A DNA stretch of 34,730 nucleotides from Candidatus Omnitrophota bacterium (lineage in GTDB: Bacteria > Omnitrophota > Gorgyraeia > Duberdicusellales > 4484-171): the NCBI GenBank assembly GCA_028703535.1, contig JAQVMQ010000009.1, positions 1-34,730 of the forward strand. Direction: 5' to 3'. The stretch's first letter is position 1; each line of letters begins with the position of its first letter. The position numbers and the translations under genes were made by a program. The notes beneath the pieces are model-generated. The model was not told the origin of the DNA and ran no database searches. It saw nothing but the letters and a program-made list of their open reading frames with translations. Below are positions 3,795 to 29,238 of this stretch, one piece after another.

Positions 3795-4323
3795 GAAAAG
3801 GGGACAGCGCCCTTTATCTTACCTTTTCAAGAAAAACTTGACGGTACTATGGGGGGATACAAGTAAGTAGAGTAAGTGAAAGAGAAAACAAAAACGTAGG
3901 GGTGGTGCTTGTCTTGCCCGTAATAATATAAAATTTAGCCAATATTCATGTTGGCGGATAGGGGGCGAGTTGCCCGTCCCGTTATTAATCAATTTTATAA
4001 AAATGAGGGAGAGGCGGTAAAGAAACGAATTGTAAGCAAGAAGAAACAGCAATGGAAGGGTAGCTCTCAATCTTGAACAGGCAGCAAATTAGTCAATAGT
4101 TAATAGTCGTTTCCCGTTCGCTTTGCTCACGGGACTGCCCTTATATGTTGAATTAAGGTTGCGGAGTCGATAGTACAAAAAAATGTTTGTAGGGGCGGAA
4201 GGATATCCGTCCGTTAAAAAATGGCAGAAAAGATGAAAAGGAAAAGTACGAAACAGAAGTGGCTTAACCCCGAAATGACACGAGTTAAGCTAAACCCTGA
4301 ACAGGGAGTATTGAGTTGTTGTG
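3795..4323. repeat. Direct repeat copy A (matches 10551-10850), containing 5' part of peptide 1
   Basis: Bases 3795-3967 match 10551-10721 with only a handful of differences, and 4205-4323 match about 10734-10849. Copy A has about 230 extra bases (3968-4200) that copy B lacks. The left end carries AAAGGGGACAGCGCCCTTT, a small hairpin-forming word of REP-like type, related to the one at 32601. GTAGGGGCG occurs at 4189-4197. Homology stops abruptly at the codons just after Cys-Cys of the peptide genes. The non-coding part 3760-4220 otherwise shows no gene; a minus-strand reading frame there is not convincing. Confidence 0.85.
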
Positions 4324-4421
4324 ACAATACCGGTCGGGGACTACAGGCTACAGAATTAACTATGCAATGCACAGATCTAATTGGTTGTACGGGTACTGTG
4401 CCCGATGGGCTTGCAAGTTAG
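4221..4421 (+). CDS. Small Cys-rich peptide 1 of the W...LSCC family
   Basis: A 66-residue peptide, one of eight in the window. Its basic N-terminus is followed by the shared block from W14 to CC (WLNPEMTRVKLNPEQGVLSCC split at this point: G replaces the usual A before VLSCC). The tail has R-G six residues after CC, then QC, a five-residue gap, C, and ends in Ser. A second Met four codons in (4233) would give the MKRK start seen in peptide 2; neither start has a good ribosome site. The first 34 codons are almost identical to peptide 4, whereas the tails are unrelated. I do not recognise the family. The layout suggests a leader plus variable core, as in ribosomally made modified peptides; a Cys4 metal site is the main alternative. 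Confidence 0.85.
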   Translation: MAEKMKRKSTKQKWLNPEMTRVKLNPEQGVLSCCDNTGRGLQATELTMQCTDLIGCTGTVPDGLAS

Positions 4422-4731
4422 TTTTAAAATTTTTTAGCGTAGTTGAGTGCTAGCCACTAGCGATATTTGATTTTCCCGACAAAGCCGAGCTCGTCTAGAT
4501 AGGGCCTAATTAATTTAGCTGGACGATATGAAAAAAAACTAGACCGGTGTTTGTTTGTGAAAGGCTCCGATTTTTGAGTTCATGGGTTGACAATGGGGAG
4601 TGATAAAAGAGAAAAAGCAATGGTATGAATTCTTTACCAATTCCAGCCTTGGGGTGCGATTGGTTTCTGATATGAGATTTGGCGCAATATGAGGTGTAAT
4701 TCACTCTTTTGACTTTTTTAATAAAAATGAG
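4422..4731. other. Intergenic stretch without convincing gene
   Basis: AT-rich DNA between peptide 1 and the DtxR-type gene. It contains short 'tagccactagcga'-style degenerate repeats near 4450. A minus-strand frame at 4510-4770 has no ribosome site or recognisable protein. I see nothing else until the promoter at 4732. Confidence 0.5.
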
Positions 4732-4769
4732 TTGACAAAGATTAAACAATATGTTAGATTCATCTAACA
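4732..4769 (+). promoter_or_regulatory. Promoter and iron-regulator operator upstream of dtxR-type gene
   Basis: TTGACA (4732-4737), 17-base spacer, TAGATT (4755-4760). The palindrome TGTTAGAT-TC-ATCTAACA (4752-4769) sits across the -10 box. The same arms occur at 5301-5318 before feoA. The arms resemble DtxR/IdeR-type boxes (TTAG...CTAA). The natural inference is auto-repression by the adjacent regulator. Confidence 0.78.
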
Positions 4770-4797
4770 AATAAAGAGGGGCCTAAAAAGAGATTTT

Positions 4798-5277
4798 ATG
4801 AAAAGTAAACTTAGTTCTGTAATGGAAGATTATTTAGAAACTATAGCAATGCTCAAAAAACGCGGTGATGGCGTAGTAAGGGTAAGGGATATAAGCGCTT
4901 TATTGAATGTTAAGAATCCAACGGTGAATGCGGCCTTAAAAACTCTTTCGGTTAAAGGTTATGTTGTTCATGAAAGATACGGGTATGTTACGCTTACTGT
5001 TAAAGGTGAAGAAAAAGCCTATGATATTCAGCGTAAGCACGATATGCTTTTTAAATTTCTTACAGATATTCTAGGTGTTGACAGACATACGGCATCTTTT
5101 GATGCCTGTAAAATGGAGCATGCCATAAGCCCTAAGACTTCAATTCGTTTAACTAAGTTTATTGAGTTTTCTGAGGAAGGATTAAATAAAGAGAATCCGC
5201 AATGGCTGAAAAATTTCAAACATTATTTAGAAACCGGGAAAAAGCCAAGCTGTAATATGAGGAAAGTAAAAAAATAG
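4798..5277 (+). CDS. DtxR/MntR-family metal-dependent transcriptional regulator
   Basis: A 159-residue regulator with an N-terminal winged helix (residues about 5-70; recognition helix near NPTVNAALKTL) and a dimerisation/metal domain, but no C-terminal SH3-like domain, so MntR-like in length. Candidate metal ligands are D11, E14, H81, C104, E107 and H108. D11/E14 sit where MntR-type proteins have ligands, while C104 in ACKMEH matches the Cys of iron-sensing DtxR/IdeR, so metal preference is mixed on sequence alone. It precedes feoAB and is flanked by two matching palindromes, which makes Fe2+-dependent repression of itself and feoAB the likely role. Confidence 0.92.
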   Translation: MKSKLSSVMEDYLETIAMLKKRGDGVVRVRDISALLNVKNPTVNAALKTLSVKGYVVHERYGYVTLTVKGEEKAYDIQRKHDMLFKFLTDILGVDRHTASFDACKMEHAISPKTSIRLTKFIEFSEEGLNKENPQWLKNFKHYLETGKKPSCNMRKVKK

Positions 5278-5298
5278 AAGAGAAAAATTTTTGTTCAT

Positions 5299-5320
5299 AA
5301 TGTTAGATTAATCTAACATT
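5299..5320 (+). promoter_or_regulatory. 22-bp perfect palindromic operator upstream of feoA
   Basis: Core TGTTAGATTAATCTAACA at 5301-5318, extended by two further matching pairs on each side. It shares both 8-bp arms with the operator at 4752-4769. A half-site-like ATCTAA follows at about 5330-5335. Likely the DtxR-family binding site controlling feoAB. Confidence 0.8.
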
Positions 5321-5348
5321 TATTTATTAATCTAAATTAGGAGGTTTT

Positions 5349-5597
5349 ATGGAAAAAAGGCTTAATGAGTTATCTATTAACCAAAAAGGGAAAGTCACTG
5401 ATATTTACGGACAGCAGGAGTTGATAAAGAAATTTTTGGATATGGGGATTATAAGGGGTACCGAAATCGAGGTTGTAAAAGTCGCGCCTTTGGGTGACCC
5501 GATAGATATTAAAATAAGGGGCTATCATTTAAGCTTAAGGCGTAATGAGGCAGTAAATATTTCTGTTATGGTTTTAAATAAGGAGGAACGTATATGA
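5349..5597 (+). CDS. feoA: FeoA ferrous-iron transport accessory protein
   Basis: An 82-residue SH3-like FeoA protein with the expected LSINQKGKVTDIYGQQELIKKFLDMGIIRGTEIEVVKVAPLGDP pattern (family signature LxxMGxxxGxxIxVxxxAPxGDP). FeoA binds and tunes FeoB at the inner membrane. AGGAGG at 5339-5344 sets the start. The stop overlaps the feoB start by four bases (ATGA), so the two are translationally coupled. An operator for the upstream DtxR-type regulator lies 28 bases before the start. Confidence 0.95.
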   Translation: MEKRLNELSINQKGKVTDIYGQQELIKKFLDMGIIRGTEIEVVKVAPLGDPIDIKIRGYHLSLRRNEAVNISVMVLNKEERI

Positions 5598-7678
5598 AAA
5601 AAATAAAAATTAATGTGGCACTTGCGGGTAATCCAAATTCAGGTAAGTCTACAATTTTTAATAATATTACAGGCGCGCGTCAGCATGTTGGGAATTATCC
5701 CGGAGTCACTGTTGAAAAAAAAGAAGGGAAGGTCGATTTTAAAGGCTATGAATTAAATATAATAGATCTTCCCGGAACATACGGACTGTCGGCATATTCG
5801 GAAGATGAGGTTGTTGCGCGTGATTTTATTATAAAGGAGAAGCCTGACGTAATAGTTCATATTGTTGATTCTTCAAATTTAGAAAGAAATCTGTATCTGG
5901 GTACTCAGTTAATGGAATTAGATATACCGCTTGTGTTTGTTATGAATATGAGTGATATGGCAGAAAAAAACAGGCAGTTTATTGATTATAAAAAATTATC
6001 AGATTTATTGGGTACAGCGGTTATTCCTACGGTCGGTAATAAGAATCTGGGGACCGATAAAATTCTGGATACAATAGTGAAAATTTATGAAGGGAAGATG
6101 AAAATAAAAATGGTTGAGGTTGATTATGGTTCGGAAATAAATGAAGAAATAATTAAAATCACATCAATCATTAAGCGGGAAAAAGATTTAATTTCACTTT
6201 ATCCGTTAAATTGGCTCGTCATTAAAGTATTGGAGAATGACCCGGAAGTTATGAGTATAGTTAATTCGTATGCGACAGCTTCTGAAGTTATCGCTCAAAA
6301 AGATAAGAGCAGGCAGCATCTTTATTTGCATTTTGGTGATAATATCGAGACTATAATAGCGGACAGACGTTATGGTTTTGTGAGCGGCGCGTGTTTAGAG
6401 TGTCTGAAGATTACGGTAGAAGAAAGACACAATTTGTCTGACAGGATAGATAAAGTGATTTTAAATAGAGTCTTGGGACTTCCTATTTTTGCTATGGTTA
6501 TGTATCTGATATTTAAATTTACTTTTACGTTTTCTGAGCCAATGGTTGGTTGGTTTGAGAGTTTTTTTGAGCTGCTTTCGTCCCTAGCAGTGAAATATAT
6601 ACCGGATGGATTAGTGCAGTCTTTTGTTGTTGACGGGCTTATAGGTGGTGTAGGAGGTGTTTTGGGTTTTTTCCCTTTGGTTTTGTTTATGTTTTTTGCG
6701 ATAGCTTTTTTTGAAGATTCAGGGTATATGGCACGTGCCGCGTTTGTGATGGACAGGATAATGAGCAAGTTCGGGCTTCACGGTAAATCTTTTTTGCCTA
6801 TGATGATCTCAACTAACGGATGTGCCGTTCCTGGTATTATGGCGACACGTACTTTGTCAAACAAACGAGACAGACTTATAACTATGATGGTTACGCCATT
6901 TATGATATGCGGCGCGAAGTTGCCTATTTTTGCTTTGTTTATAGGCGCGTTTTTTTCTGCTGAATATGGTGCCGATATTATGTTTATTATGTATATTTTA
7001 AGTGTTATTATCGCGTTTGTTTCAGCGTGGGTTTTAAAGAAATTAGTTTTTCAAGGCGAAACTTCTCATTTTGTTATGGAGCTGCCGCCGTATAGGCTGC
7101 CTTCTTTTACGGGGTTATTGCTTAAGATGTGGGAGCGAGGCCGGTTATATTTAAAAAAGGCCGGTACGATAATAGTTGTTATTTCAATTATGATCTGGGC
7201 AGGTTTTACTTTTCCGATAAAAGAAGCACCAGATAGTTTAACTGATGAGGCTGCGGCGTCTTTTCAGATTGAAGAAAGTTATGCCGGCAGAATAGGGAAA
7301 TTTATCGAATCGGTGGTTAGACCTATAGGTATGGATTGGCGTGGAGGTGTTGCGCTTATAGCCGGGGTTGCGGCTAAGGAAGTCGTTGTCAGTACTTTAG
7401 GGACAATATACAGTTTAGGTGAAGTTGATGCTGAAGCGCCGGACTCGTTAAAAGAAGTTTTGCAGAAAGATAAATTTTGGAATCCGTTGAAAGCTGTGGC
7501 GTTTTTGATGTTTTCACTTATTTATTTACCTTGTTTTGTGGCTATGGCGGTTTTTTATCGGGAAAGCGGCTCTAGTATTAAATGGACATTCTTTCTGATT
7601 TTTTGGACTTCTGTTATGGCGTGGGGCGCGGCATTTATTGTATATCAGGGCGGAACTTTATTGGGTATAGGGGTTTAA
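5594..7678 (+). CDS. feoB: FeoB ferrous-iron transporter
   Basis: A 694-residue inner-membrane Fe2+ transporter. The N-terminal G domain shows G1 GNPNSGKS (12-19), switch I around PGVTVE (T39), G3 DLPG (58-61) and G4 NMSD (118-121). A GDI-like linker (about 165-280) follows, then the membrane part with two Gate domains, including GYMARAAFVMDRIM, NGCAVPGIMATRTL and the Cys of MICGAKLPIF. Length is normal for FeoB and all GTPase motifs are intact. AGGAGG precedes the start within feoA. A small zinc-ribbon protein follows 14 bases after the stop. Confidence 0.97.
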   Translation: MKKIKINVALAGNPNSGKSTIFNNITGARQHVGNYPGVTVEKKEGKVDFKGYELNIIDLPGTYGLSAYSEDEVVARDFIIKEKPDVIVHIVDSSNLERNLYLGTQLMELDIPLVFVMNMSDMAEKNRQFIDYKKLSDLLGTAVIPTVGNKNLGTDKILDTIVKIYEGKMKIKMVEVDYGSEINEEIIKITSIIKREKDLISLYPLNWLVIKVLENDPEVMSIVNSYATASEVIAQKDKSRQHLYLHFGDNIETIIADRRYGFVSGACLECLKITVEERHNLSDRIDKVILNRVLGLPIFAMVMYLIFKFTFTFSEPMVGWFESFFELLSSLAVKYIPDGLVQSFVVDGLIGGVGGVLGFFPLVLFMFFAIAFFEDSGYMARAAFVMDRIMSKFGLHGKSFLPMMISTNGCAVPGIMATRTLSNKRDRLITMMVTPFMICGAKLPIFALFIGAFFSAEYGADIMFIMYILSVIIAFVSAWVLKKLVFQGETSHFVMELPPYRLPSFTGLLLKMWERGRLYLKKAGTIIVVISIMIWAGFTFPIKEAPDSLTDEAAASFQIEESYAGRIGKFIESVVRPIGMDWRGGVALIAGVAAKEVVVSTLGTIYSLGEVDAEAPDSLKEVLQKDKFWNPLKAVAFLMFSLIYLPCFVAMAVFYRESGSSIKWTFFLIFWTSVMAWGAAFIVYQGGTLLGIGV

Positions 7679-7692
7679 GAGCGGTGTTTGTT

Positions 7693-7887
7693 ATGAAAAA
7701 GGATGCAGTAAATAATAATAAAAATATTAAAGATGATCGGCAAATAAGATGTGCTTGCGGGAAATTGTATATGGTAAGGACAAAAGACGGATATGAATTT
7801 AAATGTTCAAGATGTAAAAGGATATATTTGATTAAGTATGAAGATCTCATAGCTGACTATCTTACAAAAGGGAGAAGTATTGACTAA
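7693..7887 (+). CDS. Small Com-like zinc-ribbon protein
   Basis: A 64-residue protein with a treble-clef/zinc-ribbon pattern IRCACGKLY...YEFKCSRCKRIY (C-x-C-G ... C-x2-C), resembling the Com-type zinc ribbon otherwise known from phage translational regulators. I choose ATG 7693 because the longer frame from 7582 would lie inside feoB; GTG 7684 is an alternative. It follows feoB by 14 bases and is followed by a strong terminator at 7931-7970, so it is the last gene of the feoAB transcript proper. A metal-binding role in the iron module is plausible but not shown. Confidence 0.75.
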   Translation: MKKDAVNNNKNIKDDRQIRCACGKLYMVRTKDGYEFKCSRCKRIYLIKYEDLIADYLTKGRSID

Positions 7888-7930
7888 TAATATCGGTTTG
7901 TAAGTAGTATGCGCGCGGTCAGAGATCATG

Positions 7931-7970
7931 AATCCGGAACCCATAGAGTATGTGTTCCGGATATTTTTTT
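7931..7970 (+). terminator. Strong rho-independent terminator ending feoAB transcript
   Basis: ATCCGGAAC (7932-7940) pairs perfectly with GTTCCGGAT (7954-7962), with an inner CATA/TATG stem and a GAG loop, followed by ATTTTTTT. The next gene's ribosome site begins right at its end, so partial read-through or attenuation could set expression of the downstream genes. Confidence 0.88.
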
Positions 7971-7982
7971 AAGGAGGCTAAT

Positions 7983-8186
7983 ATGGAGAAGAAAGGTTTG
8001 CTGGTTAATAGAGAGGGTGTGGGGAATATTTTTAAGTGTAGTTGCGGGATAATCCATGTAAATCTTAAAGCTATTTCTTTGAGATTTACTGAATCAGCTT
8101 TTCTGGAAGTCGCAGGGATGTTTAAAGAAGGGGCGTCAAAATTGATGGATGAAGGATTGAAAATATTGCTAAGTGAACAGGAATAG
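7983..8186 (+). CDS. Small CxCG-motif protein in Feo locus
   Basis: A 67-residue cytoplasmic protein with a KCSCG motif at about residues 19-23 followed by IIHVNLKAISLRFTESAF and a C-terminal amphipathic helix. I do not recognise it by name; small CxCG proteins of this look accompany iron-transport genes in other anaerobes, which is a recollection rather than a check. AAGGAGG at 7971-7977 fixes the start at 7983; the longer frame from 7950 would start inside the terminator hairpin. It lies between the terminator and a 25-codon Cys-rich gene. Confidence 0.72.
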   Translation: MEKKGLLVNREGVGNIFKCSCGIIHVNLKAISLRFTESAFLEVAGMFKEGASKLMDEGLKILLSEQE

Positions 8187-8200
8187 TGAAAGGAGGTTTT

Positions 8201-8278
8201 ATGAAAAAACAATGTCGATGTAATGGTGATTGCGGGTTAAATTGTAAATGTAAAAATAAAAAAAATGAGAACAAATAG
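8201..8278 (+). CDS. 25-residue Cys-rich miniprotein
   Basis: A very short gene with a near-perfect ribosome site (AAAGGAGG, 8189-8196) five bases before ATG. The product MKKQCRCNGDCGLNCKCKNK... has five Cys in a C-x-C-x4-C-x3-C-x-C pattern within a Lys-rich peptide, like a minimal metallothionein or iron-sulfur/metal-binding peptide. It lies 14 bases after the CxCG protein and 23 bases before the porin, each with its own strong ribosome site, so it is part of one transcript. Its reality rests on the ribosome site, spacing and Cys pattern; function is unknown. Confidence 0.62.
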   Translation: MKKQCRCNGDCGLNCKCKNKKNENK

Positions 8279-8301
8279 TTTTTAAAAAGGAGGTAGGTTA
8301 G

Positions 8302-9576
8302 ATGAGAGTTAAAGGGACTTTGAGTTTATTTCTGGTTTTGGGTTTTTTAATCTTTTCGGTTGAGCATGTTTTTGGCGGTACTACGGGAGAAGAAATTCTA
8401 GAGTTGAAACAGAGGATAGAAGGACTTGAAGCAAAACTGGCAGAAGATCGGGAAGTAAGGGAAAAGGAATTTATCGCGCAAAATACATTGAATAGGATAA
8501 ATGAAGTCTTTGACGGGCTCAGCATAGGAGGAGGCGCTACTTTTATTATGCAAGGTACAAATAATGCTAATGGCGAGAGCCTTTCAAATAATAGCGAAGA
8601 CTCTACGGATGCGTCTTATTCTATAGATCTTGAGTTTGAGAAAGAATTTAAAGATTACGGCAAGGCATTTATACACTTAGAGACAGGTGATGGATCGGGG
8701 GTTGAAGACGAATTGGCTCTTTTTTCATCGGTTAACAGGGACGTGGATGATTCTGATAGTGGCGTATCTGTCACTGAGGCGTGGTACGAGCATTATTTTT
8801 CTAAAATACCGTTGGCATTGACTTTTGGTAAAATAGATCCGACTGCCTATCTTGATGGTAATAATTATGCCAATGACGAATGTTCCCAATTTTTAGGGCA
8901 TGTTTTCAGAAATTCTCCTGTAATAGAATTTCCTGACGATAATGGCGCAGGTATTCATGCCTTATTAGAGCCTTTGGATTTTTTTGATATTGAATTAACA
9001 TTAATGGACGCTGATGCTGATTGGGAGAATGTAGGCGATAATATTTTCTTTGCGGGACAAGTAAATATTAAACCGGGATTTTACGGTAAAGACGGTAATT
9101 ATAGGTTTTATGTATGGCTGAATAACAAAGACCATATTAAATGGACTAATAGTTCAGAATCGGAAGAAACAAATTACGGTGCAGGTATTAGTTTTGATCA
9201 AGAACTGACTGACATTATGAGTGTGTTTCTTCGTTATGGATGGCAGAACCCGGAAGTTTATGTGGATGGTTCAGATTTTTCACTGGAACAGTCATGGAGT
9301 GCCGGTGTGCAGTTTTCGGGAGATAAATGGAATAGAGGTGATGATGTTCTTGCTTTAGCTTTTGGGCAGATAATCCCGTCTGATGATTATAAAAATTGCG
9401 CGGCGGTAAAAGGAAATACTGAGAACCATTTTGAGGCGTATTACAACTTCAGAGTTAATGAGCATTTAAGTCTAACTCCAGATATCCAGGTTATTTGGGA
9501 CCCTTATGGCGGAGATGCCGTTAACGGAGATAAAACGGTTTTTGTAGGGGGCTTGCGTGCACAAATAGACTTTTAA
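8302..9576 (+). CDS. Outer-membrane porin (OprB-like carbohydrate-porin type)
   Basis: A 424-residue secreted protein. Residues 1-25 form a signal peptide ending near VFGG, 28-60 a short coiled coil (EEILELKQRIEGLEAKLAEDREVREKE broken across heptads), and the rest alternating beta-strands ending in Phe (AQIDF), typical of an outer-membrane barrel. The segment FGKIDPTAYLDGNNYANDE...QFLGHVFRNSPVIEFPDDNGAGIHALLEP matches the style of OprB-like porins. AAGGAGG at 8287-8293 sets the start. Placement at the end of an iron-uptake transcript suggests passage of iron or an iron ligand, which is inference; the homology alone suggests a general or sugar porin. A terminator follows at 9599. Confidence 0.82.
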   Translation: MRVKGTLSLFLVLGFLIFSVEHVFGGTTGEEILELKQRIEGLEAKLAEDREVREKEFIAQNTLNRINEVFDGLSIGGGATFIMQGTNNANGESLSNNSEDSTDASYSIDLEFEKEFKDYGKAFIHLETGDGSGVEDELALFSSVNRDVDDSDSGVSVTEAWYEHYFSKIPLALTFGKIDPTAYLDGNNYANDECSQFLGHVFRNSPVIEFPDDNGAGIHALLEPLDFFDIELTLMDADADWENVGDNIFFAGQVNIKPGFYGKDGNYRFYVWLNNKDHIKWTNSSESEETNYGAGISFDQELTDIMSVFLRYGWQNPEVYVDGSDFSLEQSWSAGVQFSGDKWNRGDDVLALAFGQIIPSDDYKNCAAVKGNTENHFEAYYNFRVNEHLSLTPDIQVIWDPYGGDAVNGDKTVFVGGLRAQIDF

Positions 9577-9598
9577 TATTAGGGCCTGTTTTCTGAAA

Positions 9599-9637
9599 CC
9601 CAGTTTTCGTTTTGGACGGGAACTGGGCTTTTTATTT
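9599..9637 (+). terminator. Rho-independent terminator after porin
   Basis: CCCAGTT (9599-9605) pairs with AACTGGG (9621-9627), followed by CTTTTTATTT. It closes the iron-module transcript. Confidence 0.82.
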
Positions 9638-9697
9638 GACTAGCTGCTCTATCTTGATATTAAGAGGATATGCTATTTTTGTATGGAGGTTTTTAAT
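9632..9697 (-). pseudogene. 3' relic of an XRE-type regulator, antisense to start of peptide 2
   Basis: Read on the minus strand, this short stretch gives KNL..KIAYPLNIKIEQLVK followed by a stop, which aligns with the C-terminus of the intact XRE regulator at 9953-10159 (KNLAKIAKSLNTKIENLVK-stop) at about 14 of 20 positions. No N-terminal part remains. The relic runs into the ribosome site and first codons of peptide 2, so the peptide gene appears to have been joined to, or to have overwritten, the rest of a former regulator gene. It suggests that a regulator-plus-peptide unit was once duplicated here. Confidence 0.62.
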
Positions 9698-9899
9698 GAA
9701 AAGGAAAAATACAAATAGACAAAGATGGATTAAACCGGAATTAATACAGATAAAGCTTAATCCGGAACAAGCTGTTTTAAGTTGCTGTGATTTTTCTGTA
9801 AGAGGTATGAATACTGCCGGAGAATTGTGGTATATACCTTCAGGTCAGTGCTGGAAGGTCGGGTGTTTCGGAGAAACGCAGGCCTATGGTTTGAGTTGA
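9696..9899 (+). CDS. Small Cys-rich peptide 2 of the W...LSCC family
   Basis: A 67-residue peptide: basic MKRKNTNRQR start, the shared block WIKPELIQIKLNPEQAVLSCC (broken here as W..KPE..IKLNPEQAVLSCC), then a tail with RG six residues after CC, QC, four residues, C, and final Ser. TGGAGG at 9684-9689 fixes the start at 9696; the longer frame from 9612 begins inside a terminator and is rejected. This is the copy with the clearest ribosome site and therefore the best guide to the family's true N-terminus. It lies convergent to the intact XRE regulator and overlaps a relic of another on its 5' side. Confidence 0.85.
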   Translation: MKRKNTNRQRWIKPELIQIKLNPEQAVLSCCDFSVRGMNTAGELWYIPSGQCWKVGCFGETQAYGLS

Positions 9900-9952
9900 A
9901 TTTTTAAAAAAGGATGTTTGCTTAGGGTTAATAAAGTAAGACTTTGCATAAA

Positions 9953-10159
9953 TCATTTAACCAGATTTTCTATTTTAGTATTAAGAGATTTAGCTATTTT
10001 TGCCAAGTTTTTCACGCCGATATTTTTTTCGCCGCGTTCAATTTGGCCTATATATGCTCTGTGCAGGTTAGCTTCTAACGCAAGGTCTTCTTGTGTCCAG
10101 CCTTTTTTATTTCTGTATTTTTTTATATTTGTTCCGACAAGTTTATTTATATTTTCCAT
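9953..10159 (-). CDS. XRE-family (Cro/C1-type) transcriptional regulator
   Basis: A 68-residue single helix-turn-helix protein: IKKYRNKKGWTQEDLALEANLHRAYIGQIERGEKNI is a textbook HTH_3 domain covering residues 12-46, and there is no other domain. It is read divergently from peptide 3 and convergently to peptide 2. A minus-strand promoter (TCGACT at 10206-10201, 16-base spacer, TATAAT at 10184-10179) and AAGGA ribosome site precede it. Two 19-bp near-identical repeats lie in the 130-bp space shared with peptide 3, one abutting its own -35 box and one across the peptide -10 box, so it plausibly controls both genes. Confidence 0.9.
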   Translation of the reverse strand: MENINKLVGTNIKKYRNKKGWTQEDLALEANLHRAYIGQIERGEKNIGVKNLAKIAKSLNTKIENLVK

Positions 10160-10178
10160 ATGATTTTCCTTGAATAGG

Positions 10179-10225
10179 ATTATAGAGTATGCTACTGATA
10201 AGTCGACTACCTATAGATATCATTT
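10179..10225 (-). promoter_or_regulatory. XRE gene promoter and first 19-bp repeat
   Basis: On the minus strand, TCGACT-N16-TATAAT. Immediately upstream of its -35 box, plus-strand 10207-10225 reads CTACCTATAGATATCATTT, which matches 16 of 19 bases at 10250-10268. Proposed operator for the XRE protein. Confidence 0.55.
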
Positions 10226-10237
10226 ATTGTTTTATCT

Positions 10238-10268
10238 CTTGACTTTCTGCTACCCAGAGGTATCATTT
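10238..10268 (+). promoter_or_regulatory. Peptide 3 promoter with second 19-bp repeat over the -10
   Basis: TTGACT (10238-10243), 17-base spacer, TATCAT (10261-10266). The repeat CTACCCAGAGGTATCATTT (10250-10268) covers the spacer and -10 box, 43 bases (about four helical turns) from its partner. Binding here would block peptide 3 transcription. Confidence 0.6.
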
Positions 10269-10300
10269 TAGAAAGGCTTTTATAAAAGAGAATGTTAAGA

Positions 10301-10501
10301 ATGTGTAGTAAAAAACAAAATAAAAAGAGGATATGGGCTGTTTTGGAGATAACTAAGATCAAACTTAATCCCGAACAAGCGGTATTGAGTTGTTGCGCAG
10401 TACCTTCTAGGGGGGCAACAGAACCGCCTTTTCAGTGTAGTATATCCGGTTCCGGTAGTGGGGTATGCACGACTCAAGAAGCCTATCTATCTAACAGTTA
10501 A
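10301..10501 (+). CDS. Small Cys-rich peptide 3 of the W...LSCC family
   Basis: A 66-residue peptide: MCSKKQNKKR, then the shared block with W..LEITKIKLNPEQAVLSCC (Leu replaces the usual Pro after W), RG six residues after CC, QC, a nine-residue Ser/Gly-rich gap, C, and final Ser. ATG 10301 is preferred over 10292 because AAAGAG (10285-10290) is far too close to the latter. It has a convincing promoter with a candidate operator for the divergent XRE regulator, the only family member here with such a regulator pair. An extra Cys occurs at residue 2. Confidence 0.83.
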   Translation: MCSKKQNKKRIWAVLEITKIKLNPEQAVLSCCAVPSRGATEPPFQCSISGSGSGVCTTQEAYLSNS

Positions 10502-10550
10502 TCTTTTATGGATAATTTGCCCGGTTAAAAAGGGAGAAAGAGAAAAATGG

Positions 10551-10850
10551 GAAAAGGGGACAGCGCCCTTTATCTTTCCTTTTCAAGAAAAACTTGACGG
10601 TACTATGGGGGGATACAAGTAAGTAGAGTAAGTGAAAGAGAAAACAAGAACGTAGGGTGTGCTTGTCTTGCCCGTAATAATATAAAATTTAGCCAACATT
10701 CATGTTGGTGGATAGGGGGCGGATGGACATCCTCCCGTTAAAAAATGACAGAAAAGATGAAAAGGAAAAGTGCGAAACAGAAGTGGCTTAACCCCGAAAT
10801 GACACGAGTTAAGCTAAACCCTGAACAGGCAGTGTTGAGTTGTTGTGATG
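10551..10850. repeat. Direct repeat copy B (matches 3795-3967 plus 4205-4323)
   Basis: Second copy of the segment described at 3795, lacking about 230 bases present in copy A. It starts with the hairpin word AAAGGGGACAGCGCCCTTT and includes GGATG-GA-CATCC at 10721-10732, which replaces the divergent internal part. It continues into peptide 4 and stops matching at the codons after Cys-Cys. Confidence 0.85.
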
Positions 10851-10963
10851 TTGTTGCGAGAGCTCTTACCAGTACAATTACTTTTACTAGAGTTTCCCAG
10901 TTTCAGTGTAGTGACAGGAATTTATGTCCGGCTACGGACTTTGCTTCTGATGTATCCAGTTGA
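10745..10963 (+). CDS. Small Cys-rich peptide 4 of the W...LSCC family
   Basis: A 72-residue peptide, the longest copy. Residues 1-33 differ from peptide 1 at only three positions (A2T, T10A, G29A), up to and including LSCCD. The tail is unrelated except for the scaffold: RA six residues after CC, QC, five residues, C, and final Ser-Ser. ATG 10757 (MKRK) is an alternative start by analogy with peptide 2. No clear promoter of its own is visible; the duplicated upstream segment may supply one. Confidence 0.85.
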   Translation: MTEKMKRKSAKQKWLNPEMTRVKLNPEQAVLSCCDVVARALTSTITFTRVSQFQCSDRNLCPATDFASDVSS

Positions 10964-18729: not shown

Positions 18730-19242
18730 ATGAATAAGGAGAAAACACAGTATATGATAGACGTTAATGAGAAAAAGTTCTATAAAGTTGATGATATCGT
18801 GAAAAAACACGGTTTTAAGAAGATGAATCTTATAGCGATATTACAGGAAATACAGGGAGAATATCGTTATCTTCCTGAAGAAATTATGACTTATGTTGCG
18901 ACTGTTATGAATTTACCCTTATCTCATATTTTTGGTGTTGCGACGTTTTATTCACAGTTCAGCTTAGAGCCTAAAGGTAAGTATGAGATAAAGATATGTG
19001 ACGGGACTGCCTGTCATGTAAGGGGCAGCGAGCCGATAATCAAAGCTGTGCGTAATAAGTTGAATTTAACCAAAGATAAAAAAACTACTGATGATTTGCT
19101 GTTTAGTTTAGAAACCGTGAGTTGTCTGGGGGCATGCGGGCTTGCACCTGTGGTTGTTATCAACGATAAAGTGTATCCCCAGATGACTCCGGAAAAAATA
19201 AGTAAAGTTATAGATGACCTTAAAAGTCTAAAGAAGGAATAA
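18730..19242 (+). CDS. NuoE/HndA/HydC-like [2Fe-2S] subunit of NAD-linked [FeFe]-hydrogenase
   Basis: A 170-residue NuoE-family protein with C90 and C95 (CDGTAC) and C132 and C136 (CLGAC) as [2Fe-2S] ligands. It is the small electron-transfer subunit of trimeric electron-bifurcating or NAD(P)-linked hydrogenases (HydC or HndA). It is the first gene of a six-gene operon with gaps of 2-14 bases, downstream of a strong promoter and a Rex-like operator. A paralogue is at 288-773. Confidence 0.93.
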   Translation: MNKEKTQYMIDVNEKKFYKVDDIVKKHGFKKMNLIAILQEIQGEYRYLPEEIMTYVATVMNLPLSHIFGVATFYSQFSLEPKGKYEIKICDGTACHVRGSEPIIKAVRNKLNLTKDKKTTDDLLFSLETVSCLGACGLAPVVVINDKVYPQMTPEKISKVIDDLKSLKKE

Positions 19243-19244
19243 GT

Positions 19245-21107
19245 ATGGGCCGAAAAATAAAAAACCGCGAAGAATTTGCTGATTTTAAAGGTGCGGCATT
19301 TAAGAATTTTGTAGAACACGGCGCACGAGTTCTTATATGTTCAGGAACGGGCTGTATGGCTAACGGCGCGATGGATGTGTATAACGTATTTTTAGAATTG
19401 AAAATTAATGTTAAGTTTAAGAATACTGAGAAAGATATAGCGTTGGTTAAGACGGGATGCCGAGGGTTTTGTGAGAATGGTGTTCTTGTCGATATAGTTG
19501 ATGACGGGGTGACTTATGTTAAAGTCAAAAAGGAGGATGTAGCTGAAATAGTGGAGAGCCATTTAAAAAACGGGCAGATAGTGCAGCGTCTTTTATATCA
19601 TGACCCTAAAACTGATTCCAGAGTAGAAAAGAATAAAGATATTAATTTTTATGCTAAACAAAAACGTACGTCTTTGGCTAATTGCGGACATATCGATCCC
19701 GAAAGTATAGGTGAATATATATTTGTCGGGGGATATGAATCGTTATGGGATGTTTTAAGTAAAACACCGGATGAAGTATGTAAAACAGTTTCTGAAAGCG
19801 GATTGCGCGGCCGCGGCGGCGGCGGGTTTCCTACAGGGCGTAAATGGGAGTTTGTTAAAAACGCCGAAGGTAAAAAGAAATACGTTATTTGTAACGGTGA
19901 TGAAGGCGATCCGGGCGCGTTTATGGACAGAAGTATAATGGAGGGTGATCCGCATAAGCTTATTGAAGGTATGATAACAGCGGCTTATGCTGTTGGTGCT
20001 GATGAAGGTTATATCTATGTGCGGGCTGAATACCCGCTGGCTGTTAAAAGATTGCGTGTAGCGGTTAAGCAGGCTGAAGAAATCGGCGTTTTAGGCGTAA
20101 ATATATTCGGTTCGGATTTTTCGTTTAAAATAAAAGTTAAAGAAGGTGCCGGCGCTTTTGTTTGTGGAGAAGAAACAGCGTTAATGGCGTCAATTGAAGG
20201 TGAACGCGGTATGCCCAAATCTAAGCCGCCTTTTCCTGCTAATAAAGGGTTGTTTGGCAAGCCGACATTGATAAATAATGTCGAGACTTATTCCAATGTT
20301 CCGTTGATAATGAAAAACGGTGCCCAATGGTTTAGGAAATTGGGGTCACCTAAAAATCCCGGGACTAAAACTTTCGCGTTGACAGGGGAGATAAATAATT
20401 CAGGGCTTATTGAAGTACCTATGGGTATGACGTTACGAGAGATAGTCTTTGATATTGGCGGGGGTATACGTAATGGGAAAAAATTCAAAGCTGTTCAGAT
20501 CGGTGGTCCGTCCGGCGGATGCTTGACCGAAGAACATTTGGACCTTCCGCTTGAATATGAGACTTTGATAGAAGTTGGGGCTATGGTTGGCTCAGGTGGG
20601 TTGGTTGTTCTTAATGAAGATACTTGTATGGTAGAGATTGCGAGATTTTTTATGCATTTTACCCAGAACGAATCCTGCGGTAAATGTGTTTTATGCCGCG
20701 AAGGTACTAAAAATATGCTTAAGATATTAGAAAAAATAGTCGAAGGTAAGGCTCAACTTTCTGATCTTGATCTTTTGGAAGAATTGGCACTTGCGGTTAA
20801 GGACGGGTCTTTGTGCGGACTTGGCAAGACTGCGCCTAATCCGGTTTTGTCTACTCTGCGTTATTTCAGAGATGAATATTTAGCTCATATAATTGATAAA
20901 CGCTGTCCAGCCGGTGTATGCTCAGCGCTTAAAATGATTGAGATAGATGAACAGTTATGTAAAGGCTGTAGTAAATGCGCTAGGCTTTGTCCGGTAGGTG
21001 CTATAAGCGGTGAGATAAAGAAAACCTATAAGATTGATCAGACTAAATGTATTAAATGCGGTGCGTGTTTGACAGCATGCCCGTTTAAAGCGATAAAAGA
21101 GGTGTAA
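19245..21107 (+). CDS. NuoF/HydB-like NADH- and FMN-binding hydrogenase subunit
   Basis: A 620-residue flavo-iron-sulfur subunit. Domains in order: thioredoxin-like [2Fe-2S] domain (C32, C37, C72, C76); NuoF core with the NADH/FMN loop GLRGRGGGGFPTGRKW (186-201) and CNGDEGDPGAFMDR (216-229); SLBB-like region; NuoF C-terminal [4Fe-4S] site ESCGKCVLCREGT (476-488); and two ferredoxin [4Fe-4S] sites (CKGCSKCARLCP, 572-583; CIKCGACLTACP, 602-613). This is the full HydB layout, which oxidises or forms NADH and passes electrons to the hydrogenase subunit, with possible flavin-based bifurcation. It lies two bases after the NuoE-like gene and two before the catalytic subunit. Confidence 0.96.
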   Translation: MGRKIKNREEFADFKGAAFKNFVEHGARVLICSGTGCMANGAMDVYNVFLELKINVKFKNTEKDIALVKTGCRGFCENGVLVDIVDDGVTYVKVKKEDVAEIVESHLKNGQIVQRLLYHDPKTDSRVEKNKDINFYAKQKRTSLANCGHIDPESIGEYIFVGGYESLWDVLSKTPDEVCKTVSESGLRGRGGGGFPTGRKWEFVKNAEGKKKYVICNGDEGDPGAFMDRSIMEGDPHKLIEGMITAAYAVGADEGYIYVRAEYPLAVKRLRVAVKQAEEIGVLGVNIFGSDFSFKIKVKEGAGAFVCGEETALMASIEGERGMPKSKPPFPANKGLFGKPTLINNVETYSNVPLIMKNGAQWFRKLGSPKNPGTKTFALTGEINNSGLIEVPMGMTLREIVFDIGGGIRNGKKFKAVQIGGPSGGCLTEEHLDLPLEYETLIEVGAMVGSGGLVVLNEDTCMVEIARFFMHFTQNESCGKCVLCREGTKNMLKILEKIVEGKAQLSDLDLLEELALAVKDGSLCGLGKTAPNPVLSTLRYFRDEYLAHIIDKRCPAGVCSALKMIEIDEQLCKGCSKCARLCPVGAISGEIKKTYKIDQTKCIKCGACLTACPFKAIKEV

Positions 21108-21109
21108 AA

Positions 21110-23143
21110 ATGGATAAAAAGGCTTGTGATAAAATTTTGTATATTGACGATAAGCCTTTTGCGATAGGTAACGAAAAGAATTTATTGGAAGTCATACGTA
21201 ATGCGGGGTATGATCTGCCGACCTTTTGTTACCGTTCCGATCTTTCAGTTTACGGTGCATGCCGTATGTGTGTTGTTGAGATCGAAGGTAGAGGAGTTCA
21301 GGCCAGTTGTACGGTTCCGCCCGAGCCGGGTATGAAAGTTACAATAAACACCGAAAAAACCAGACGTATACGGCGTATGGTAATAAAACTTTTGCTTGCC
21401 AATCACAGTAAAGATTGTACGACGTGTTCTAAAAGCGGAGAATGCGATCTTCAGGAAGCCGCTAGTAGATTGGGTATAACTGATATACCGTTTGAATGTG
21501 AGGAAAAAAAACACCCGCTTGATACGGGCAATCCGGCTGTTATAAGGGACCCTAATAAATGTATCTTATGCGGGGCGTGTGTTAGGACTTGCCGTGAAAT
21601 ACAGGGTAAAAGTGTATTGGATTTTGTTTATCGCGGATCGAATACAATAGTATCACCAGCGTTTAAAAAAAACCTGGATGAGGTCAACTGTACGTTTTGT
21701 GGGCAATGTGTTGCGGTTTGTCCAACGGGTGCTTTACGTATACGTTCTGAGCTTGATAATTTCTGGAAAATGGTGTTAGATAAAAATAAAAAAGTCGTTG
21801 TACAGGTCGCGCCTGCTGTGCGTGTTGCCTTTGGCGAAGCATTTGGTATTAAGCCCGGAAAAAATCTTATAGGTATGATAACGGCGGCGTTACGAAAAGT
21901 CGGTGTCGACAAAGTATTTGATACTACGTTTGCAGCTGATCTTACCATTATGGAAGAAGCGACTGAGTTCGTTAATATGCTTAAAAGTAAAAAAGATTTT
22001 CCATTGTTGACTAGCTGTTGTCCTGCGTGGGTTCGGCATGTTGAACAGAAATATCCGCAGTTTATATCGCATTTATCTACTTGCCGTTCTCCACAGCAGA
22101 TGTTCGGCGCGGTAGCTAAAGAGTTGTTATCTAAAGAGTATGGCATTAGACGAGAGGAAATATGTGTTGTGTCTGTTATGCCGTGTACGGCCAAAAAGTC
22201 CGAGGCCAGACGTAAGGAGTTTAGTGTCAATTCTGACCCGGATGTAGATGTAGTTTTGACTACCCAAGAATTAATCAAGATGGTCAAAGCGGGAAACATA
22301 AATTTTTCTGCGTTAGAACCGCAAGAGATGGATTCACCTTTTGGCGTTTTTTCAGGAGCGGGTGTGATATTCGGTGCCTCAGGCGGTGTCGCTGAGGCGG
22401 CTTTACGTACTGCGTATAAACTTGTTACGGGCGAGGCGTTGGGTGAGATTGAAATTAAACCTTTGCGCGGGTTGAAGAGCTTTAAAGAATTTGCTGTTAA
22501 TATCAAGGGTGAGGTTATCAGTGTCGCAGTTGTTAATACTTTATCGCAAGCAAGTAAGCTGCTTGAAGATATAGCGGCGCATAAAGTCCATTATCATCTA
22601 GTTGAGGTTATGGCGTGTCCCGGCGGATGTATCGCGGGTGCCGGTCAGCCATATAGCATTGATCGTATGGCTATTAGAGAAGGCCGACTTAAGGGACTTT
22701 ACCAGGATGATGTGGATAGTAGAATTCGGGTTTCTTATGAGAATGAAGAAGTTCAGAAATTATATGATAAATGGCTGCAAAATCCTAATAGCGAAATTGC
22801 TCATCAATTTCTTCACACGCATTATCATAATAGGAAACGTATTACAGGTGAAGATATAGGCCTTTTCCGTAAAGGATCTGAGGTTCTGCCTAAAACTACT
22901 GTTTGTGTTTGTGTCGGTACATCATGTTATGTGCACGGTTCATATGATTTTATCGAGGCGATAATGGCTAAGATCCGTGCTGAAGGGCTGGAGGATGCTG
23001 TTATGGTTAAAGCTACGTTTTGCCTGCAGCAATGTGGGCATGGTCCTAATATAAAGATAGATGATCAGATTATAAGTCATGCTACTGTTGATAGGGTGTC
23101 TGAGATTTTTGATAGATATATACGTGTGAAATACAAGAAATAG
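21110..23143 (+). CDS. [FeFe]-hydrogenase catalytic subunit (HydA/HndD type) with C-terminal [2Fe-2S] domain
   Basis: A 677-residue enzyme with an N-terminal [2Fe-2S] domain (C40, C51, C54, C67), His-Cys3 [4Fe-4S] site (H99, C103, C106, C112), two ferredoxin clusters (CILCGACVRTC, 151-161; CTFCGQCVAVC, 194-204), then the H domain: L1 TSCCPAW (301-307, proton-relay Cys 303), L2 MPCTAKKSE (357-365), L3 VMACPGGCIAGAGQPY (500-515). All H-cluster Cys are present. L3 reads GAGQP where GGGQP is usual. After the small-subunit-like tail (to about 575) comes an extra thioredoxin-like [2Fe-2S] domain (C601, C606, C638, C642). It makes or oxidises H2 with the two preceding subunits. Confidence 0.96.
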   Translation: MDKKACDKILYIDDKPFAIGNEKNLLEVIRNAGYDLPTFCYRSDLSVYGACRMCVVEIEGRGVQASCTVPPEPGMKVTINTEKTRRIRRMVIKLLLANHSKDCTTCSKSGECDLQEAASRLGITDIPFECEEKKHPLDTGNPAVIRDPNKCILCGACVRTCREIQGKSVLDFVYRGSNTIVSPAFKKNLDEVNCTFCGQCVAVCPTGALRIRSELDNFWKMVLDKNKKVVVQVAPAVRVAFGEAFGIKPGKNLIGMITAALRKVGVDKVFDTTFAADLTIMEEATEFVNMLKSKKDFPLLTSCCPAWVRHVEQKYPQFISHLSTCRSPQQMFGAVAKELLSKEYGIRREEICVVSVMPCTAKKSEARRKEFSVNSDPDVDVVLTTQELIKMVKAGNINFSALEPQEMDSPFGVFSGAGVIFGASGGVAEAALRTAYKLVTGEALGEIEIKPLRGLKSFKEFAVNIKGEVISVAVVNTLSQASKLLEDIAAHKVHYHLVEVMACPGGCIAGAGQPYSIDRMAIREGRLKGLYQDDVDSRIRVSYENEEVQKLYDKWLQNPNSEIAHQFLHTHYHNRKRITGEDIGLFRKGSEVLPKTTVCVCVGTSCYVHGSYDFIEAIMAKIRAEGLEDAVMVKATFCLQQCGHGPNIKIDDQIISHATVDRVSEIFDRYIRVKYKK

Positions 23144-23156
23144 TGAAGGGATATTT

Positions 23157-24062
23157 ATGCGAAATGATTTACCAAAACCTACTTTACGACGTTTACCCAT
23201 ATATTTTAAGTTATTTAACGATGCCTTAGCCGAAGGGAAAACGCATCTTTCCAGTCATGAGATAGCGAGTGACCTTGGAATTGATTCTACTCAAGTACGT
23301 AAGGATATTGCCATGACAGGTTATGTAGGCAAGCCCAAATCCGGATTTGAGATCGAAGGGTTTATAAAGCATTTGAAAGTATTTTTGAAATTACAGCGCA
23401 AGAAAAAAACTATAGTGGTGGGCATGGGGAATCTTGGTGTGGCTATATCGCGTTATAAAGGTTTTGATGAATACGGGCTTGATATTGCGGGATTATTTGA
23501 CAGTGATTTGCACAAAGTCGGTATGAAAGTCAGAGATTGTAAGATAAGCCTTGTTGTTGAGATGCCGGATTTTATACGCGAGAATACTGTTGAAATAGCT
23601 ATATTGACTGTACCTATGGATGAGGCTCAAGCGGTTACTAATCTTCTTGTTGAAGCGGGGATTAAAGGTATATGGAATTTTACACCGGCACAACTTAAAG
23701 TTCCGGATAATGTTATTGTTTGGTCACAGGACCTTATGGCGGGATTTATGACACTTTTACTGTTGATGCAGCAAAAAGAAGAGGATATAGTTGTTGACGG
23801 AGAAGATGCAAAAAAGCATGAACTGCGTATTTGTATGGGTTCGGCGTGTCATCAATTGGGCGCGTTTGATGTATTGCAAGCCATGAAGAATTTTCTTAAG
23901 CAGTATAATGTTGAGAATCGGGTACATTTAAAAGGAGCTTTTTGTCTTGGCCATTGTGCTGAAGGGATAGCAGTAACGTTGGACGATCAGCTGATAAAGG
24001 GCGTGCGTATCGAAAATGTGGAAGAGAAATTTGTTAATGAAATATTACCTGTCATCCGATAA
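23157..24062 (+). CDS. Rex-type redox regulator fused to a thioredoxin-like [2Fe-2S] ferredoxin domain
   Basis: A 301-residue protein. Residues 8-65 are the Rex winged helix (LPIYFKLFNDAL...SSHEIASDLGIDSTQVRKDIAMTGYVGKP), 80-205 the NAD(H)-binding Rossmann domain with VGMGNLG (88-94) and the domain-swap helix. These match full-length Rex (about 210 residues). A second domain, 222-301, carries C226, C231, C263 and C267 (CMGSAC, CLGHC), the ligand pattern of thioredoxin-like [2Fe-2S] ferredoxins and of the hydrogenase subunits in this same operon. Rex represses fermentation and hydrogenase genes when NADH is low; the extra cluster could let it also sense, or dock to, the hydrogenase electron chain (inference). 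AAGGGA precedes the start; it lies 13 bases after the catalytic subunit. Confidence 0.93.
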   Translation: MRNDLPKPTLRRLPIYFKLFNDALAEGKTHLSSHEIASDLGIDSTQVRKDIAMTGYVGKPKSGFEIEGFIKHLKVFLKLQRKKKTIVVGMGNLGVAISRYKGFDEYGLDIAGLFDSDLHKVGMKVRDCKISLVVEMPDFIRENTVEIAILTVPMDEAQAVTNLLVEAGIKGIWNFTPAQLKVPDNVIVWSQDLMAGFMTLLLLMQQKEEDIVVDGEDAKKHELRICMGSACHQLGAFDVLQAMKNFLKQYNVENRVHLKGAFCLGHCAEGIAVTLDDQLIKGVRIENVEEKFVNEILPVIR

Positions 24063-25820: not shown

Positions 25821-26021
25821 ATGGATAAGGAGAAAACAATTAATAGAAATAAACTTGTCTGGTTGAAGCCGGAAATAATAAAGATAGCGCTCAACTCTGA
25901 ACAAGCGGTATTGAGTTGCTGCGATAATTCAGGGAAAGGTATATCTGAGGTTTCTTGGACTCCCTATTCGCAGTGTGGGGGTATGTGCGTTGGCACGGGG
26001 GCTAATGCAATGGCCAGTTAA
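25821..26021 (+). CDS. Small Cys-rich peptide 5 of the W...LSCC family
   Basis: A 66-residue peptide: MDKEKTINRNKLV, shared block W..KPEIIKIALNSEQAVLSCC (A for K and S for P are local variants), KG six residues after CC, QC, a three-residue gap, C, and final Ser. ATG 25821 is chosen because a TTG start at 25785 would lie in the -35 box. It is the first of three tandem copies (gaps 36 and 16 bases) directly after the hydrogenase operon but with its own promoter. Confidence 0.83.
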   Translation: MDKEKTINRNKLVWLKPEIIKIALNSEQAVLSCCDNSGKGISEVSWTPYSQCGGMCVGTGANAMAS

Positions 26022-26057: not shown

Positions 26058-26246
26058 ATGAACGTAATGAAGAATAAAAAATGGATAAAACCTGAAATGT
26101 TACGAATAAAGCTTAATCCTGAGCAAGCTGTTTTGAGTTGTTGCAATTCAGCCATGCGTGCGTTGGATAATGGGGGACATCAATGCGGATATCCGGCTTT
26201 CACGTGTGGGACAAGTTATGGGAATCTCGATTCGGTCTCAAGTTAA
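26058..26246 (+). CDS. Small Cys-rich peptide 6 of the W...LSCC family
   Basis: A 62-residue peptide: W..KPEMLRIKLNPEQAVLSCC block, RA six residues after CC, QC, six residues, C, final Ser-Ser. ATG 26067 (MKNKKW) is an alternative start; a weak TTGATT-N17-TTAAAT (26028-26056) would make a transcript starting close to it. No ribosome site. Middle gene of the three-copy array. Confidence 0.82.
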   Translation: MNVMKNKKWIKPEMLRIKLNPEQAVLSCCNSAMRALDNGGHQCGYPAFTCGTSYGNLDSVSS

Positions 26247-26262: not shown

Positions 26263-26448
26263 ATGAATAATAAGATTTCAAAAAGAAAAGTGTGGGCGGG
26301 GATAGAAGTGACAAGGATAAAAATTAGCCCTGAACAAGCTGTTCTAAGTTGTTGTGAGGTTGTGTATCGAGGAGAGACATTTCCTGCCAATACGACACAG
26401 TGCGGGGCTGGATGTTGGGTTTATGCGCGTAATAGTATGAGCAGTTAG
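26263..26448 (+). CDS. Small Cys-rich peptide 7 of the W...LSCC family
   Basis: A 61-residue peptide: MNNKISKRKV, block W..IEVTRIKISPEQAVLSCC, RG six residues after CC, QC, three residues, C, final Ser-Ser. The long frame from 26158 overlaps peptide 6 and is rejected in favour of ATG 26263. It starts 16 bases after the peptide 6 stop, so it is probably co-transcribed with it. No terminator is obvious in the 200 bases that follow. Confidence 0.82.
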   Translation: MNNKISKRKVWAGIEVTRIKISPEQAVLSCCEVVYRGETFPANTTQCGAGCWVYARNSMSS

Positions 26449-29040: not shown

Positions 29041-29238
29041 ATGAAAAACATATATAAAAAAAAAGTATGGGCTAGCCCTAAAGTTACAAGCGTGAAACTT
29101 AATCCCGAACAGGCTGTGTTAAGCTGTTGCGCAGGAGTAGGCAGAGCAGAGTTCGTTGTGTCTCTTACGGGTTCTATTTTCCAATGTGTCGTTAATATGG
29201 GGGTATGTGCTGATTCTGATGTATCAATGGCGTCATGA
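29041..29238 (+). CDS. Small Cys-rich peptide 8 of the W...LSCC family
   Basis: A 65-residue peptide: MKNIYKKKV, block W..PKVTSVKLNPEQAVLSCC (K replaces the E after P), RA six residues after CC, QC, six residues, C, final Ser. ATG 29041 is preferred to TTG 29035, which lies between the -10 box and the expected start of transcription. It is an isolated copy with its own extended -10 promoter. Confidence 0.84.
   Translation: MKNIYKKKVWASPKVTSVKLNPEQAVLSCCAGVGRAEFVVSLTGSIFQCVVNMGVCADSDVSMAS

Follow-up and report, generated by a model that had tools for sequence, protein, structure and literature searches.

Recombination at the leader-core junction as the probable origin of new leader-core pairs in a candidate peptide precursor family of an Omnitrophota genome

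Two short genes of Candidatus Omnitrophota bacterium (assembly GCA_028703535.1, contig JAQVMQ010000009.1), coding for peptides 1 and 4, are nearly identical in their upstream DNA and in the codons of their N-terminal leader as far as a Cys-Cys pair, and unrelated in the C-terminal part, or core, that follows, which raises the question of how one leader came to stand before two different cores. The window analysed is the entire contig (34,730 bases; C40 among the contigs, cited below by C numbers) of a draft genome of 1.41 Mb in 90 contigs that is 90% complete. In our view, both genes are likely to belong to a leader-guided family of ribosomally synthesized and post-translationally modified peptides (RiPPs), in which 5' modules are re-paired with cores through recombination in the conserved 3' end of the leader.

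The two copies, both on the + strand, are linked by three direct repeat blocks, 3795-3901/10551-10657 (98% identity), 3905-3967/10659-10721 (97%) and 4192-4324/10716-10848 (94%), found with E-values of 8e-76 and 1.5e-53 in the whole-genome search. In brief, copy 1 includes an upstream A-block with a REP-like GTAGGGG... palindrome (3795-3967; 96% identical to copy 4 and 95% to C86), a block made of the 5' untranslated region (5'UTR) and the leader (4192-4324), in which homology to copy 4 ends at Cys-Cys, and the 66-aa peptide 1 precursor (4221-4421; the start common to family members is its internal ATG at 4233) with the core DNTGRGLQATELTMQCTDLIGCTGTVPDGLAS (4323-4418). Copy 4 includes an A-block (10551-10721), a 5'UTR and leader block (10716-10848) and the 72-aa peptide 4 precursor (10745-10963; internal ATG at 10757) with the core DVVARALTSTITFTRVSQFQCSDRNLCPATDFASDVSS (10847-10960). 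The leaders are 97% identical from -95 to -1 (positions in nt relative to the Cys-Cys end), and 18 of the 60 nt directly past Cys-Cys match, which is the chance level; the core lengths are unequal and the non-coding 3' flanks unrelated. Neither core has a DNA relative elsewhere in the genome, and a search of this 90%-complete genome with each core and its 3' flank returned no counterpart. The first-pass annotation of this region had described near-perfect homology through the upstream DNA and the leader codons, followed by unrelated tails and flanks, and this description is borne out. It had also treated the pair as a single duplicated segment; the repeat blocks are real but not collinear, about 224 bp (3968-4191) being present in copy 1 and missing from copy 4, where the join lies at GGGGCG.

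Peptides 1 and 4 are part of a family of about 50 dispersed precursor genes, accompanied by a looser second class. A search of the genome with a leader profile (A2) gave 66 places at E<=1, of which 48 are strong, on more than 30 contigs. Eight members lie in the window, the others being the precursors of peptides 2 (9696-9899), 3 (10292-10501), 5 (25821-26021), 6 (26058-26246), 7 (26263-26448) and 8 (29041-29238), all on the + strand. The leader pattern is W..PEI..IKLNPEQAVLSCC. Class I genes follow K..W..PE...(I/V)KLNPEQAVLSCC, usually with Asp next, then a basic and a small residue, QC, a second Cys and a C-terminal Ser; their cores are 26-40 aa long and contain exactly two Cys, besides Cys-Cys, in 43 of 47 cases. 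Class II, about ten genes of the same genome with the pattern YKPKI..IELD.EQAVLA.C, has cores of 44-50 aa, nearly all ending in Ser (L083, L084, L085, L093, L101-L103), and the complete precursor genes end in Ser in 56 cases out of 57. A conserved leader and a variable core are thus combined in a short precursor, as in RiPPs, and no Pfam or NCBIfam model matches the peptides above its cut-off. Matches to the leader family are present in 26 of 384 genomes sampled from the phylum, at copy numbers nowhere near that of the window genome (17 in G005). A viral origin was considered and rejected, leader relatives being absent from 2.9 million viral contigs. A lone XRE-type helix-turn-helix gene (9953-10159, - strand) is convergent with peptide 2, and small regulators resembling it lie near precursors at L082, L080 and L102, one being shared by C12 and C67 at 88%, which hints at local control.

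Breakpoints were mapped by comparing 64 members all against all, which gave 344 in-register pairs; the strong pairs (n=25) are those in which homology reaches non-coding 5' DNA. Over the 344 pairs, the right ends are piled at -1 to +8 nt, while the left ends are spread from -300 to -40. In every one of the 25 strong pairs, the right end of homology falls in the interval from -18 to +7; several pairs end at -18, and a common core is kept by none of the compared pairs. Furthermore, a Mantel test over 46 genes gave no correlation of leader with core similarity (r 0.027, p 0.32): the two vary independently. The first-pass annotation had placed a sharp end of homology one codon past Cys-Cys: similarity does fade there, yet most members keep this Asp codon, and the best-resolved pairs lose near-identity about 12-20 nt before the Cys-Cys end. 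Two other candidates were rejected. The apparent full gene duplicate C35_7405/C64_16880, the only pair reaching +251, consists of two orphan leaders with homology through the AATTAGTC module to the Cys-Cys of the next gene, and the common 3' flank of C12/C67 (88%) is the antisense XRE-type regulator gene and no core exchange.

These results bear on a simpler scenario, in which whole genes were duplicated and their cores then changed by slow drift or under strong diversifying selection. The cores do keep a common layout (R/K then a small residue, QC, C, terminal Ser) and are probably anciently related, but the flanks are 94-98% identical beside a core at chance level, and loss of the non-coding 3' flank and unequal core lengths are not what this scenario predicts. 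For copies 1 and 4, duplication with drift is excluded because the right ends are fixed, no cores are shared and leader and core vary independently; as a general account it is very unlikely. Recombination at a fixed point, proposed in the first-pass annotation over slow drift, therefore has strong support, to which similar junctions in other genera and in another phylum add.

A clean case comes from another Omnitrophota genome (L172). Two genes there are 92% identical over 387 nt as far as +5, have wholly different cores, and match again from the last codons or stop codon into the 3'UTR; this pair is a true core-only replacement, the direction suggested at first. A 17,109-base stretch of L172 is 100% identical in a second metagenome-assembled genome (MAG; L188), possibly through shared reads; the two MAGs are placed in different families (G018, G073), and one of them may be misbinned. 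Other replicates are (i) six pairs in G020, with 550-630 nt of homology ending -9 to 0 of the Cys codon, (ii) a pair at L174 (Saganbacteria), 95% identical over 149 nt and ending at +3, (iii) 15 pairs in G301, with right ends at -7 to +12, and (iv) similar and weaker pairs in G005. With a stricter leader pattern, the G073 set gave no pair beyond the L172 one. Of the two fixed edges expected of a site-specific, integron-like cassette, the left edge of the core is fixed everywhere, and the right edge is visible only in L172/L188. Family-wide mapping at the nucleotide level, related genomes included, points to one fixed junction.

The same replicates bear on two artefactual or targeted origins. 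An assembler could have jumped between near-identical leaders, all the more so in a multi-contig draft whose contigs C57, C59 and C50 begin or end in a leader. But copies 1 and 4 share no exact run longer than 70 nt, and this run is bounded by mismatches at either end; every gene is in frame with the core pattern of the family, and the same sharp edge is found in several other genomes, one pair being identical in two MAG assemblies, possibly from shared reads. A chimera, which would have undone the first interpretation, is thus unlikely for copies 1 and 4 and cannot account for the many replicates; overall it is highly improbable. A diversity-generating retroelement, or another form of targeted core mutagenesis, would agree with the restriction of variation to the C-terminal part of the gene. 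Template-copied mutagenesis would, however, conserve core length and 3' flank, and here the cores differ in length and the 3' flanks are unrelated; the fixed-length variable region and conserved 3' flank of a retroelement target are not seen, and on these grounds, with no search aimed at a reverse transcriptase, this origin is scarcely credible.

Which side of the junction moved can be approached from the 5' modules, since the A-block, the 5'UTR and the leader have different sister copies. The leader of copy 1 is 97% identical to that of copy 4; its 5'UTR is 97% identical to that of C35, with a leader identity of only 78%, and the A-block of copy 4 is 96% identical to that of C86, with a leader identity of only 74%. 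C64_17182 and C64_16645 share the leader alone (97%), their 5'UTR, core and DNA on both sides being unrelated; 78 of 79 upstream positions agree and 4 of the last 21 differ, and the exchange point therefore lies inside the NPEQAV codons. Furthermore, orphan leaders of differing sequence are present at five loci. Each stops at EQAV or its equivalent, followed by (A)ATTAGTC, and runs into AATTAGTCNATAGT; a complete gene comes after this, in most cases behind a REP-like palindrome. Among the five loci is copy 1, with the same EQA(V/A)N-stop junction as the other four: its extra 224 bp contain a degenerate older leader (3962-4092, + strand; last frame ...SNGRVALNLEQAAN*; 87% identical to the leader region at G000:C44), followed on the + strand by the module between old and new leader (4087-4174), composed of AATTAGTCAATAGT, a REP-like palindrome (TTTCCCGTTCGCTTTGCTCACGGGA) and GTCGATAGT. 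Because this degenerate leader remains at 3962-4092, the present leader of copy 1 has probably displaced an older one ahead of its core. As the sister copies of the blocks differ, one pair shares its leader only and copy 1 seems to hold a displaced leader, the sequences indicate that leaders, and not cores alone, are overwritten or inserted. The direction given in the first-pass annotation, replacement of the core, is accordingly doubtful for copies 1 and 4, even though it stands for L172; we infer that in copy 1 movement of the leader side is the favoured interpretation.

The orphan leaders also invite a more specific explanation, namely a dedicated exchange in which a repetitive extragenic palindrome (REP) and its associated tyrosine transposase (RAYT, Y1 transposase), or else a site-specific reaction, would act at the CCTGAACAGGCNGTA motif, either by inserting leader modules or by swapping core cassettes. 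In its strongest form, leader modules (REP-like palindrome, 5'UTR and leader) would be mobile and insert at one motif of existing precursor genes, so that the old leader is left orphaned and the new one takes over the old core. Such an integron-like generator of new leader-core pairs, for a new radical-SAM/kinase peptide class, is in our view possible but rather improbable. Five differing orphan leaders do end at almost the same codon, all leading into one AATTAGTCNATAGT module; REP-like GTAG palindromes precede leaders, seven Y1_Tnp genes are encoded in the genome, the L172 replacement runs exactly from leader to stop codon, and PMC10783134 cites published work that associates TnpA-REP with prochlorosin genes. 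On the other hand, no recombinase is consistently found beside precursor genes, the shared orphan junction could go back to a single event and later conversion, no obvious terminal structure marks the right edge, and REP copies are also found away from precursors, so that a dedicated exchange appears unlikely. Enrichment of RAYT genes near precursors was considered and found unconvincing: one is adjacent (C81), others lie at about 1.2 kb (C78) and 4.4 kb (C18), and the remainder are on contigs on which no precursor was found. The evidence does not decide between plain homologous exchange and a specific REP/transposase mechanism.

In the favoured reading, that of a leader-guided RiPP family, the dispersed copies would undergo ectopic recombination or conversion, by which 5' modules (REP-like palindrome, 5'UTR, leader) come to stand before unrelated modules made of a core and its 3' DNA. 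Genes newly formed by exchange within CCTGAACARGCNGT...TGYTGY, where the 3' end of the leader coding sequence is strongly conserved, would be viable, because maturation would be guided by the leader and any core behind it would be tolerated.

A candidate for such a maturation system is encoded on C80. Here the sole PqqD gene of the genome (60 bits against a Pfam cut-off of 23.4) lies together with three radical-SAM genes and with genes for an HprK-like and a phosphodiesterase-like protein. The HprK-like protein carries the motif H...GKSGAGKST...NDDR, and its predicted model (mean pLDDT, the predicted local distance difference test score, 90) matches PEPCK and HPr kinase folds; curated family models score below cut-off for this protein. 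In other genomes, loci of this cassette were found from a radical-SAM alignment in Omnitrophota, Saganbacteria, WOR-3 and Elusimicrobia, and 20 of 24 are accompanied by at least one precursor of the leader family; in three of the other four, the contig is very short or ends close to the match. The peptides are best read as a new candidate RiPP family on which a single cassette of PqqD, three radical-SAM enzymes and an HprK-like kinase would act in trans. The leader is probably bound by the PqqD-type protein of C80 and presented to the three adjoining radical-SAM enzymes, and the core is probably cross-linked. Since an HprK-like kinase is encoded, a C-terminal Ser is near-universal and kinase-tailored lasso peptides offer a parallel, phosphorylation of the terminal Ser by the HprK/PEPCK-fold kinase of the cassette is suggested as probable. 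G020 has several dispersed copies (L130, 11514-12236; L131, 8868-9623) of a gene in which leader and core are joined to the end of a truncated PqqD domain; by its domain composition, this fusion is a precursor with its own recognition-domain fragment.

Several points weigh against this reading. The precursors of the window genome lie outside the cassette, the nearest being 18 kb from the PqqD gene. The right ends of the weak pairs are partly set by protein conservation of the leader, so that the breakpoint argument rests on the strong pairs and the lost 3' flanks. No donor of core 1 or core 4 was found in the 90%-complete genome, which is a draft with some contigs broken at leaders; the comparison covers one strain of the species, and chemistry and activity are predictions from sequence.

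The nearest parallel is provided by the prochlorosins, the ProcA/ProcM lanthipeptides of marine picocyanobacteria, in which one promiscuous maturation system serves precursors with conserved leaders and non-conserved cores (PMC10783134, PMC10027976); these papers link recombination proteins and TnpA-REP transposases to prochlorosin diversity. As with the prochlorosins, one maturation system would serve many precursors here, although the family is not a prochlorosin member and differs in its leader family, its PqqD/radical-SAM/kinase cassette, its nucleotide-level leader/core mosaics, its 1.4-Mb genome and its uncultured phylum. No Nif11 model of Pfam or NCBIfam matches the peptides. The cassette recalls the SynChlorMet one (TIGR04248-TIGR04251: ScmD, ScmC, ScmE, ScmF), with a PqqD-like protein, several radical SAM/SPASM proteins and an HprK-like relative of ScmC, but it has three radical SAM genes, and the ScmC, ScmD, ScmE and ScmF equivalogs score 23-81 bits against cut-offs of 100-400. 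In lasso peptide systems of the PadeK/ThcoK type, several of the HprK-type kinases act on the precursor by phosphorylating its C-terminal Ser (PMC10368454). These systems share with ours a recognition protein, an HprK-type kinase and a leader motif, the W/Y..P.I motif resembling YxxPxL, and differ from it by the radical-SAM enzymes and core pattern found here. The leader of peptide 6 weakly resembles the sactipeptide precursor StsA (NF045558; 17.7 bits against a cut-off of 42), and the enzymes are not StsB-like at cut-off. The system is best called a combinatorial RiPP variant with an unusually legible recombination record. For combinatorial RiPPs, the prochlorosins among them, it is an open question how one enzyme system gains dozens of unrelated cores; with about 50 copies, recent leader duplicates, orphan leaders and fixed junctions in one small genome, the process can be read at the nucleotide level and tested in populations. 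The precursors of a radical-SAM/PqqD/kinase cassette are indicated as well, and the searches made here brought up no curated family model for this candidate peptide class.

Elsewhere in the window, a GTCGATAGT/TTAGTCAATAGT repeat with a REP-like palindrome lies directly past the stop codon of a TauE-like gene (2169-2400), without a precursor. Genes named from their translations include, between peptides 1 and 2 (4798-7678), a DtxR-like regulator followed by FeoA-like and FeoB-like genes, and, at 18730-24062, NuoE/NuoF-like subunits, an iron-hydrogenase-like protein and a Rex-like regulator that has an additional ferredoxin-like part at its C-terminus.

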